From NCBI GenBank assembly GCA_021324885.1, contig JAJPIF010000024.1, forward strand, positions 62,001-126,000: a stretch of 64,000 nucleotides of DNA. Reading direction: 5' to 3'. A program made the position numbers and the translations under genes. Position 1 is the stretch's first letter, and every line of letters begins with the position of its first letter. This document shows, piece after piece, positions 26,353 through 29,411 of this stretch. The notes beneath the pieces are model-generated. The model saw only the letters and a list, made by a program, of their open reading frames with translations, was not told the origin of the DNA and ran no database searches. The stretch is from Pseudomonadota bacterium. GTDB taxonomy: Bacteria > Desulfobacterota > Binatia > Binatales > Binataceae.

Positions 26353-26382
26353 TTGCCCGCGGGGCTCTGGCTTTGCTAGGAT
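26353..26382 (+). promoter_or_regulatory. Candidate sigma-70 promoter of nadA
   Basis: TTGCCC (26353-26358) and TAGGAT (26377-26382) are separated by 18 bases and lie about 60 bases before the nadA start. Both boxes are imperfect. A palindrome directly follows and overlaps the last base of the -10 box, which supports a repressible promoter. Calling it a promoter is inference. Confidence 0.5.
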
Positions 26383-26398
26383 GTGTCAATTTGACGCA
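26382..26398. promoter_or_regulatory. Candidate NrtR-type operator upstream of nadA
   Basis: TGTGTCAATTTGACGCA is an imperfect palindrome: TGTGTCAA and the reverse complement TGCGTCAA differ at one position, around a central T. It lies at the presumed transcription start, 46 bases upstream of the nadA ATG, where a bound repressor would block initiation. The linked NrtR-like gene at 27649 makes it the natural candidate binder. Confidence 0.6.
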
Positions 26399-26443
26399 AA
26401 GGGTGGTTCCGGCTGATCCGGCCAACCGCAGCGGTGACTCATT

Positions 26444-27457
26444 ATGGCACCTGCAACCCATACAGCCTTAGATGGCGACCAGCTTTATCACAAACTTAGC
26501 GTTCTCGGGCAATACGATTATGACCGCGCCACCTGCGATCGGTACGCGTCGATGATCGCCGAGATCCGTCGGCTGAAGGAACAACTCCGGGCCGTGGTGC
26601 TGGCGCACAATTATCAGCGTCCGGAGATTTTCGAGGTCGCCGACTTCATTGGGGATTCCCTGGAGCTGGCGCGCAAGGCCCGTGAGGTACGCGACGCGGA
26701 AATAATCGTGTTTTGCGGCGTTCACTTCATGGCCGAGACTGCCAAGGTGTTCAACCCTGAACGCACCGTGCTGCTGCCCTACCTCAAGGCCGGATGCTCG
26801 CTGGCCGACAGCGTCACGGCCGAGGCGCTGGCGGATCGCAAGGCCGAACTGAGGCGGATTTATCCCGACCTCAAGGTGGTCTCGTACGTCAACTGCACCG
26901 CTGACGTGAAAGCCCTTTCCGACGCCTGCTGCACCTCCGCCAACGCCACCAAAATCGTTGATGCGATAGACGGGGATCATATCCTGTTCGTGCCCGATCA
27001 GAATCTGGCCAACTACGTCCAGGGACAGACCAAAAAGCAGATCATCTCGTGGGACGGCAACTGCTATGTCCATCATCAGATTACGGTGGCCGAAGTCGAG
27101 AAGGTCAAACGCGGGCTGCCGGGCGTCAAGGTGCTGGCCCATCCGGAATGCCGCGCCGACGTGCTTGAGGTCGCCGACGCGGTGCTTTCGACCAGCGCGA
27201 TGGTGCGGTACGCGGAGCAAAGCGACGCCACCGAATTCCTGATCGTAACCGAATGCGGCCTGTCCGATCGCCTGTTGCTGGAAATACCGGGCAAGCATTT
27301 CTACAAGGCGTGCAAGTTGTGCCGCTACATGAAGATGATCACGCTGGAGAGCACGCTCGATTCGCTGCGCAACCTGCGCTACCCAATCGAACTGGACGAC
27401 GACGTTCGCGAAGGCGCCCGCCAGGCGTTGGAACGGATGCTTGAGCTGAGCGCCTGA
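26444..27457 (+). CDS. nadA: Quinolinate synthase
   Basis: Makes quinolinate from iminoaspartate and dihydroxyacetone phosphate, the early step of de novo NAD synthesis, using a 4Fe-4S cluster. 337 residues. The family start LRAVVLAHNYQRPEIFEVADFIGDS is present. Cluster cysteines can be placed in YVNCTADVKALSDACCTSANA, LAHPECRADVLEVAD and ACKLCRYMKM. nadB and nadC are not in the window. Preceded by a promoter with an overlapping palindrome and followed by an NrtR-like regulator. Confidence 0.96.
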   Translation: MAPATHTALDGDQLYHKLSVLGQYDYDRATCDRYASMIAEIRRLKEQLRAVVLAHNYQRPEIFEVADFIGDSLELARKAREVRDAEIIVFCGVHFMAETAKVFNPERTVLLPYLKAGCSLADSVTAEALADRKAELRRIYPDLKVVSYVNCTADVKALSDACCTSANATKIVDAIDGDHILFVPDQNLANYVQGQTKKQIISWDGNCYVHHQITVAEVEKVKRGLPGVKVLAHPECRADVLEVADAVLSTSAMVRYAEQSDATEFLIVTECGLSDRLLLEIPGKHFYKACKLCRYMKMITLESTLDSLRNLRYPIELDDDVREGARQALERMLELSA

Positions 27458-27648
27458 ACCGGCATGGTGGGCGAAGGGTTGGCCGGCTTCAGGCTCGCAG
27501 GCCCGATCACGTGTCGCGAAGCGCGGATGAGAAGCTACCGGCGCCGGGCTTCGACAGCGCCGCCTCTTTCAGCCATCCCCGCTTCAAGCGCCGGTTTGGC
27601 GGGCTGTCTGTCGGGCAACAGTTGAGTAATGCCGTGTACGAGCGCTCG

Positions 27649-28356
27649 ATGCATAGCACGGGAGGCGCGGTGGCCTCCAGGCCGCGCGTCCTCAGCGGCC
27701 GCTACGAGCGCCCCAAGGTGGCGGTCGATACGGTGCTGTTCGCGGTTGAGCAAGGCCGTCTCAAGACTTGCCTGGTGCAGCTGAAGTCGGGGCCGTTGCG
27801 TGGACGATGGGCCTTTCCCGGCGGCCTGGTGCGAGTGGGTGAGATGCTTGACGATGCGGCGCGGCGCGAATTGCGCTCGACCACGGGCATCGAATGCGCC
27901 TGGCTGGAGCAGCTATTCACCTTTGGCGATCCTTCCCGCGACCCGCGCGCCCATGTTGTTTCGGTTGCCTACCTGGGGCTGATTGGGGATGCGGCCCGCG
28001 TGATTGCGCCGTCGGAGAAATATGCTGGCGGCGGATGGTTCGAGGTTCCCGGGCAGCTTCCGCCCCTTGCCTACGATCATTCGGTGATGGCAGATTACGC
28101 GCTGTCGCGGCTGCGGGCCAAACTCGTCTACACCAACGTCGCGGCGTTTGCCTTGCCGGAGTCATTCACTTTCAAGGAATTGGAAGCTTTGTACACCGCG
28201 ATTTTAGGGCGCGGCCTGGACCGCAGAAACTTCCGCCGCCGCATCCTGGCGATGGGTTTGCTGAAGAAGATGCCGGAAAAACGCCGCGGCCCCCATCGTC
28301 CTGCCGCCCTTTACAGTTTTCAAAACAAGAGCCTGCAGGTCGTGCAAACGCTATAA
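27649..28356 (+). CDS. nrtR: NrtR-like transcriptional regulator (degenerate Nudix domain plus winged helix)
   Basis: Nudix domain (about 20-150 from ATG 27649) followed by the NrtR-type winged helix FTFKELEALYTAILGRGLDRRNFRRRILAMGLLKK, ending GPHRPAALYSF. The Nudix box GGLVRVGEMLDDAARRELRSTTGI has lost the catalytic glutamate pair (REUxEE reads RELRST), as expected for regulators that sense ADP-ribose rather than cleave it. An upstream GTG at 27511 would add 46 residues without homology. NrtR proteins repress NAD-biosynthesis and salvage genes, which fits nadA immediately upstream with a palindrome at its promoter. Confidence 0.82.
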   Translation: MHSTGGAVASRPRVLSGRYERPKVAVDTVLFAVEQGRLKTCLVQLKSGPLRGRWAFPGGLVRVGEMLDDAARRELRSTTGIECAWLEQLFTFGDPSRDPRAHVVSVAYLGLIGDAARVIAPSEKYAGGGWFEVPGQLPPLAYDHSVMADYALSRLRAKLVYTNVAAFALPESFTFKELEALYTAILGRGLDRRNFRRRILAMGLLKKMPEKRRGPHRPAALYSFQNKSLQVVQTL

Positions 28357-28373
28357 ACTGATATACTGCGGTT

Positions 28374-28784
28374 ATGAATAAGAGCCGAAAGAGCGGGCTT
28401 CTGATCGCAAGCTGCGCAGTCATGGTTCTGGCCGCGGCCTATTTTGGCGCGGGCGCTTTGCGCGCGCGCCCGGCTGCCGTTTCAGCCGGAGATTACGCCG
28501 GCACGGTTACGCTGGATCCGGCTCTTTACCAGGGTCCGGCTCGCGACGCCTATCGCATCGCGCGGGAACGCCCCGAATTACTCGCGCAATTGCACTGCTA
28601 TTGCGGATGCGACCGATCGATGGGTCATAAAAACCTCCTCGACTGCTTTCGCGGCACTCACGCCGGCTATTGCGCGATATGCATAGGTGAAGCGATCGAC
28701 GCCGAACGGTTGCACGATGGCGGTACTCCGATGGATCAAATTCGCGATACGCTGCGCCAACGCTACAGCCGCCACGAGAGCTAG
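28374..28784 (+). CDS. PCYCGC-motif exported protein
   Basis: A 136-residue protein with an N-terminal hydrophobic anchor (LLIASCAVMVLAAAYFGAGAL) and the cysteine cluster LHCYCGCDRSMGHKNLLDCF, then GYCAICIGEA. This is the PCYCGC-type motif found in exported proteins of unknown function. Six cysteines could bind metal or form disulfides outside the cytoplasm. Starts 18 bases after the nrtR stop and is followed by a DedA gene 3 bases later, so it is probably part of the same transcript. Confidence 0.8.
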   Translation: MNKSRKSGLLIASCAVMVLAAAYFGAGALRARPAAVSAGDYAGTVTLDPALYQGPARDAYRIARERPELLAQLHCYCGCDRSMGHKNLLDCFRGTHAGYCAICIGEAIDAERLHDGGTPMDQIRDTLRQRYSRHES

Positions 28785-28787
28785 ATT

Positions 28788-29411
28788 TTGGTCGCCATCG
28801 TTTCCACATATCTCGAGCATTTCACTTATATCGGGATACTGGTTGTGCTGGTGCTGTGCGGTCTGGGACTGCCTGTTCCCGAGGACGCGGTATTGCTCAC
28901 CGGCGGTTTTCTGGCCCATCGCGGAATCGTCGAATACCCCGTAACGCTGGTAGTCTCATTCGTGGGAGTTATCACCGGCGACTGTTCGCTGTATTTTCTG
29001 GGGCGGCGCTTTGGCACCGGCCTGCTGCGTTATTTCGCCATTATTCATCCCGGTTCCAAAGGCGGCATCGCCCGGATGCAATCCTTTATGGATCGCCATG
29101 GTCATCGCGCGGTCTTCTATGGGCGGTTCCTGGCCGGATTGCGCGCGCTGGTCTATCTGAGCGCCGGTTCGCTGGGGGTGCCAATCTCGCGTTTCCTGAT
29201 GTACGATTTGCTGGGAGCCGTGATTTCCGTTCCGCTCGTGGTTTCGCTCGGTTATCTGTGCGGCGGTGAAATCGAGGAGATTCTCCGTTACCTGGGCGGC
29301 ATCCAGCGCGCCCTGCTCATCCTGGTTGTGCTGTCGGTGTTAATCTGGCTTATGCGTGTATTGGTGATGTCCAGACCGGTTGGAAAAAATCCGCAGGTGG
29401 AGGCTGAGTAG
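28788..29411 (+). CDS. DedA family membrane protein
   Basis: A 207-residue polytopic inner-membrane protein of the DedA/SNARE-associated family, involved in membrane homeostasis and undecaprenyl-phosphate or lipid flipping in other bacteria. Typical blocks are GLGLPVPEDAVLLTGGFLAHRG, GDCSLYFLGRRFGTG and the re-entrant motif HGHRAVFYGRFLAGLRALVYLSAGSLGV. TTG 28788 is the likely start, 3 bases after the PCYCGC stop. Confidence 0.88.
   Translation: MVAIVSTYLEHFTYIGILVVLVLCGLGLPVPEDAVLLTGGFLAHRGIVEYPVTLVVSFVGVITGDCSLYFLGRRFGTGLLRYFAIIHPGSKGGIARMQSFMDRHGHRAVFYGRFLAGLRALVYLSAGSLGVPISRFLMYDLLGAVISVPLVVSLGYLCGGEIEEILRYLGGIQRALLILVVLSVLIWLMRVLVMSRPVGKNPQVEAE

Follow-up and report, generated by a model that had tools for sequence, protein, structure and literature searches.

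Closest described regulators

The described regulators that come closest to the locus studied here are SoNrtR, BtAraR, MsNrtR and NadQ. SoNrtR of Shewanella oneidensis (PDB 3gz5, 3gz6, 3gz8) is described with a Nudix-type effector domain, an NrtR winged helix and NAD genes as targets (PMC4666351), all of which recur here. By sequence the match is at an E-value of 7.6e-29, and the SoNrtR residues Arg41 and Asn43 are replaced by Leu91 and Ser93 in our protein. BtAraR of Bacteroides thetaiotaomicron (PDB 5bs6, 5ddg) is the closest solved structure by sequence (1e-34). It is described with the same GTGT half-sites and N7 spacing, and with a recognition stretch, DKRNFRK, close to the DRRNFRR found here. 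It senses L-arabinose and controls arabinose genes, whereas here the sites are at NAD genes, and it has Gly89 where ours has Arg146.

MsNrtR of Mycobacterium smegmatis is reported to repress nadA-nadB-nadC, to have lost its catalytic activity and to be released by ADP-ribose (PMC6800001). Its operator is given as GTTTTCGA-N7-TCGAAAAC, unlike the TGCGTCA type, and there the gene and the operon are on opposite strands, whereas here nrtR lies downstream of nadA. NadQ (PDB 7q91) shares the NrtR-like winged helix, the NAD genes and a palindrome of similar layout, with a different effector domain (PMC5343134).

Control of nadA by NrtR has been reported for Mycobacterium (PMC6800001) and predicted for Corynebacterium (the source is among PMC6800001, PMC4666351, PMC5343134, PMC5045206 and PMC2807442). 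According to these reports, NrtR operators vary between groups (PMC4666351, PMC5343134) and NrtRs without catalytic activity are already known (PMC6800001, PMC4666351). A literature search returned nothing that we recognised on NrtR regulation in the class of this host. What is new here is the predicted operator motif for this class, together with an Arg/Lys difference that follows it.

The regulator gene beside nadA

We analysed a stretch of 64,000 nucleotides, called the window. The gene that follows nadA as the next open reading frame, on the same strand, encodes a protein with two Pfam domains (Table 1). The N-terminal one is NUDIX (PF00293, E 5.6e-12, 46.3 bits against a gathering threshold of 21.1) and the other is NrtR_WHD (PF21906, E 1.3e-22, 80.1 bits against 27). 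The same winged helix carries AraR_C as a second Pfam label (2.6e-11). The matches to BtAraR (5bs6) and SoNrtR (3gz5) cover about 205 residues. An earlier sequence-only reading had placed a Nudix domain and an NrtR-type winged helix in one gene directly after nadA, and these matches bear it out.

The match to the NadQ structure 7q91 (2.9e-11) is confined to residues 185-273. With the N-terminal half being Nudix, identity as NadQ was set aside. For the NCBIfam model NF050029 (ADPR responsive repressor equivalog), the protein scores 134.8 bits and does not reach the cut-off of 400, so that it earns the NrtR family label and not the equivalog label. On its Nudix-like N-terminus, NrtR winged helix, impaired Nudix signature, linkage to NAD genes and conserved palindrome, the protein is classed as a member of the NrtR family.

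The start of nrtR has several candidates. The ATG at 27649, chosen in the sequence-only reading, is possible but is only one of them: the longest frame opens at 27511, and a GTG at 27670 lies just after GGGAGGCGCG. The start is not conserved within the genus, and conservation sets in near residue 61 of the longest frame.

Table 1. Coordinates of the features at the nadA-nrtR locus, in positions of the window.
Feature	Position	Strand	Basis or remark
Candidate -35 box of the nadA promoter, TTGCCC	26353..26358	+	18 bases before TAGGAT; TTG[ACT] recurrent in relatives
Candidate -10 box, TAGGAT	26377..26382	+	Last base is the first operator base
NrtR operator (predicted), TGTGTCAATTTGACGCA	26382..26398	.	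Palindrome; conserved block in three genomes of the genus
nadA, quinolinate synthase	26444..27457	+	PF02445, E 2.4e-116; NF006878, 396.6 bits against a cut-off of 294
nrtR, Nudix-related transcriptional regulator	27511..28356	+	PF21906, PF00293 and PDB matches; true start uncertain (27511, 27649 or 27670)
Degenerate Nudix box, GGLVRVGEMLDDAARRELRSTTGI	27820..27891	+	Neither catalytic Glu of REUXEE present
NrtR winged-helix DNA-binding domain	28147..28320	+	PF21906, residues 213-270
Recognition-helix stretch, DRRNFRRR	28219..28242	+	Residues 237-244; 237-243 align to BtAraR D178-K184
CYCXC (PCYCGC) family protein gene	28374..28784	+	NF041379, 108.7 bits against a cut-off of 90; 17 bases after nrtR
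DedA/VTT membrane protein gene	28788..29411	+	PF09335, 6.9e-16

The predicted operator and the nadA promoter

The 17-bp palindrome that had been read at the nadA promoter, overlapping the end of a candidate -10 box, is there, with one base in common with TAGGAT. Complementarity holds in 7 of its 8 position pairs. Shuffles lead one to expect 0.01 occurrences of the generalised pattern TGYGTNANNNTNACRCA in the window, and there is one. In an exact scan, WGYGTCANNNTGACRCA was found at a single place in the whole 4.53-Mb host genome. With up to three mismatches allowed, the 17-mer is hardly more frequent in the host genome (4 forward and 3 reverse matches, the true site included) than its reversed control (3 and 2). 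Upstream of nadA, where the DNA of the three genomes of the genus has otherwise diverged, they share a conspicuous block GGATGTGTCAA..TGAC.CAAAGGG.

A similar promoter layout recurs in relatives. In 38 of 63 loci the operator is preceded, at a distance of 25-33 bases, by TTG[ACT]; shuffled sequences gave a mean of 5.4 and a maximum of 11. By raw count, TANNNT abuts the operator in 28 of the 63, and the spacer is 17-18 in 23 of 26 box pairs. Against the main reading, a sigma-70 consensus scan of the window gave no promoter of at least 9/12 at nadA. The layout fits a repressor that would cover both the start and the last part of the -10 box.

Downstream, the CYCXC and DedA genes both follow nrtR in 28 of 30 nrtR loci of the family, the exceptions being one at a contig edge (L011) and one with neither gene (L036). 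This recurrence suggests that both may share one NAD-controlled operon with nadA and nrtR.

Conservation of the operator across the class

Among 145 genomes of the class, 105 gave some regulator match, many of them only a short Nudix match, and 90 carry nadA. We used 88 nadA loci from the latter, leaving out the fragments in G086 and G101. Two further loci (L125, L126) were dropped as they had no nadA match, and L040, being cut by its contig start within the site, has no row in the site context table. Sites were scored over the 10 positions of [TA]G[CT]GT-N7-AC[AG]C[AT] in the 200 or so bases upstream of nadA.

The gene nrtR adjoins nadA in 64 of the 88 loci, always on the same strand. A site scoring at least 9/10 lies upstream of nadA in 63 of these 64, and 54 score 10/10. 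The sole miss is L040, whose contig starts inside the site with TGACGCA. The palindrome, which the sequence-only reading had proposed to look for near nadA in related genomes, is conserved there.

Three of the 24 nadA loci without an adjacent nrtR score at least 9: L074 and L080 at 10, and L124 at 9. In the genomes of the first two (G139 and G112), other contigs hold a full-length nrtR. The remaining 22 genomes lack a full-length NrtR match and have short Nudix matches or none; six of them (G015, G043, G046, G049, G055 and G062) also have no NrtR_WHD match. At the nadA loci of these 22 genomes, no site reaches 10/10 and one reaches 9/10.

A point against the main reading is that the pattern was written after viewing the same nadA loci; what counts most is therefore how genomes that have NrtR contrast with those that do not, together with the sites at other genes. 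With that contrast, the link between the presence of the operator and that of NrtR is strongly supported by genome comparison.

The same contrast bears on the idea that the palindrome belongs to a different regulator and nrtR is merely its neighbour. Neighbourhood alone is no proof of binding, and NadQ, an NAD regulator with an NrtR-like winged helix, is reported to use a site of similar layout, ttATRCTCannntGAGYATaa (PMC5343134). We consider this very improbable, given the missing 10/10 sites where full-length NrtR has no match, the sites in the two genomes with nrtR away from nadA, and a half-site and spacing that match those described for the related BtAraR; a NadQ-type regulator is further opposed by the Nudix N-terminal half.

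A search of the phylum for NrtR_WHD, over 395 genomes, gave 17 with a match. Seven of these lie outside the class, and at their loci our filter showed neither nadA nor the site.

Sites at genes other than nadA

By our count, the 41 genomes of the host's family (f1) hold 41 exact sites; 2 of the genomes contain the reversed pattern. Most of the sites (37 of 41) are at NAD genes: 27 at nadA, 8 at nadB, 1 at valS-nadC and 1 at an NAD synthetase pair. The remainder is one site at a contig end (G011) and three elsewhere (G006:C73, G013:C207, G038:C140). Given this distribution, assignment to the AraR/XylR branch, with its sugar-gene targets, was set aside. Both nadB and nadC are among the genes near which the sequence-only reading had proposed to look for the palindrome.

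The nadB sites belong to seven genomes of genus g15 and to G029. They amount to 8 of the 32 nadB loci examined in the family (two of which have fewer than 60 bases upstream), a small share that speaks against the main reading, and to none of 22 in other families. Among 20 nadC loci examined, 16 of them in the family, the site was found only in G004, upstream of a valS-like gene that precedes nadC. A 10/10 match in one more nadC locus (L262) was set aside, since it lies inside a long open reading frame upstream of nadC. In the host genome, nadB and the valS-like gene with nadC are on other contigs, with no 10/10 site at either, which is a further point against. Another comes from outside the family: exact sites away from nadA number 15 there, and the reversed pattern gives 3. 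The G013 genome has nadB immediately downstream of nadA-nrtR.

In G009, a genome search did not find nadA or nadB. Its operator (7448-7464 of L278, on G009:C18) ends just before the ATG of a carbon-nitrogen hydrolase gene; NAD synthase comes next. This hints at a regulator that has moved to a new target, and at a way for regulators to persist once the first target is gone.

Along with the domains, the degenerate Nudix box and the conserved operator linked to NrtR, the use of the predicted site at nadB, valS-nadC and the NAD synthetase pair in some relatives is legible in the genomes themselves. Very probably, the window encodes an NrtR-family repressor of NAD synthesis that acts on nadA through the palindrome at 26382-26398 and is released by a metabolite. 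The sequence-only reading, in its family assignment, degenerate Nudix box, link to nadA and operator, is strongly supported by the comparisons made here. Furthermore, the predicted operator and target set for NAD control in one class can be used for annotating these genomes.

Nudix box and ligand pocket

The Nudix box reads RELRSTTG, the two catalytic glutamates of REUXEE being replaced by S and T; the earlier RELRST was correctly read. In the other two genomes of the genus the boxes are RELRTSTG and RQLLSTTG. Over the 71 aligned NrtR proteins of the class, which include the window's own (G104 is missing), none has both catalytic glutamates; the first is present in 23 and the second in 2. An intact box in close homologues, which would have spoken against the sequence-only reading, was thus not seen.

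The Nudix domain scores well in Pfam, as given above, and the prototype NrtR is described with both functions (PMC6800001), so one could think of a protein that is mainly a nucleotide hydrolase with an additional DNA-binding domain. With neither catalytic glutamate in the window protein and the pair in none of the 71, this is extremely improbable, and an active hydrolase was set aside.

For the ligand pocket, we compared the SoNrtR residues named in PMC4666351. By our count on an alignment with 3gz5, SoNrtR Arg41 and Asn43 fall on the Leu91 and Ser93 mentioned above, and Arg98 falls on Arg146. Of the 71 NrtR proteins, 67 have Leu, Val or Ile at residue 91 and 17 have Arg at residue 146. Arg143 is retained in 70 of 71 and Asp144 in all 71.

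Going by family membership, ADP-ribose is the likeliest ligand of the window protein. It is also the weakest part of the earlier interpretation, as the clade does not conserve the residues equivalent to SoNrtR Arg41 and Arg98. It is possible, though doubtful, that the circuit is real and its signal is another, such as NAD or one of its precursors; a sugar, as for BtAraR and BtXylR, is a less likely candidate. The best PDB match is an arabinose sensor, AraR_C also matches, the Arg41 and Arg98 positions vary as described, and NdnR of C. glutamicum is reported as NAD-responsive (PMC6800001, PMC4666351). On the other side, residue 146 of the window protein is Arg and its BtAraR counterpart is Gly, and a sugar is made unlikely by the share of exact family sites at NAD genes.

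For the window's NrtR, we infer DNA binding, repression, the operon and the ligand as follows. A dimer would bind the 17-bp palindrome, touching the -10 box and reaching into the likely transcription start, and would keep RNA polymerase from working at the nadA promoter. Should the cluster form a single operon, nadA, nrtR itself, the CYCXC gene and dedA would all be shut off. When a metabolite related to NAD (in the best-studied NrtRs, ADP-ribose) fills the pocket of the Nudix domain, which has no catalytic residues, the winged helices would move, the repressor would release the DNA and quinolinate synthesis would rise.

Predicted operator recognition and the Arg/Lys difference

In the BtAraR-DNA crystal, D178, K179, R180, N181, R183 and K184 are described as contacting GTGT-N7-ACAC (PMC4666351; the N7 is our reading of Table 2 there). 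By alignment, the equivalents in the window protein are D237, R238, R239, N240, R242 and R243, and the window operator, GTGT-N7-ACGC, has the same half-site and spacing. By our own count, R243 is residue 6 of the recognition helix, a residue reported to take part in protein-site correlations of the NrtR family (PMC5045206).

Residue 243 is Arg in all 34 proteins with a C6-G12 operator and Lys in all 19 with A6-T12 (G104 is missing from these counts). It is also Arg in the five C6-T12 cases and in the single C6-A12 case, and the three A6-G12 operators have Arg once and Lys twice. The only other column that fully separates the C6-G12 and A6-T12 groups is 248.

In the NrtR tree, which includes column 243, a single branch of weak support (62/91) separates the Arg from the Lys proteins. 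We rejected the correlation as many-fold support, since the tree shows about one evolutionary change; with the split on one branch it counts as about one event, a lead. Two operator types with a single Arg/Lys difference make a small, clean test of how NrtR chooses its DNA.

A wider proposal would join these threads: that the class has an NrtR branch reading a signal other than ADP-ribose, because two arginines that bind phosphate in SoNrtR are not conserved, that its operator has been rewired to nadB, valS-nadC and NAD synthetase, and that helix residue 6 sets the pair 6/12 (Arg for C-G, Lys for A-T). Taken as a whole, we find this unlikely.

Other loci with nrtR

In the seven loci of family f2 (L163-L169), nrtR is not adjacent to nadA, and no convincing operator was found around it. 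In L163, L165 and L169 it follows a gene that in L163, the one searched, gave a weak phosphonate-binding protein match, the likeness in the others being judged by eye. Several f2 loci have a gene beside nrtR that resembles, again by eye, a beta-lactamase fold, tested in L166.

Finally, G009 encodes a protein of about 575 residues (L278:3426-5150) in which a quinolinate phosphoribosyltransferase-like part is joined to a molybdopterin-binding part. A frame in G013 (L279:1724-3436) is similar in length and start to this fusion and has a weak match to the nadC model.
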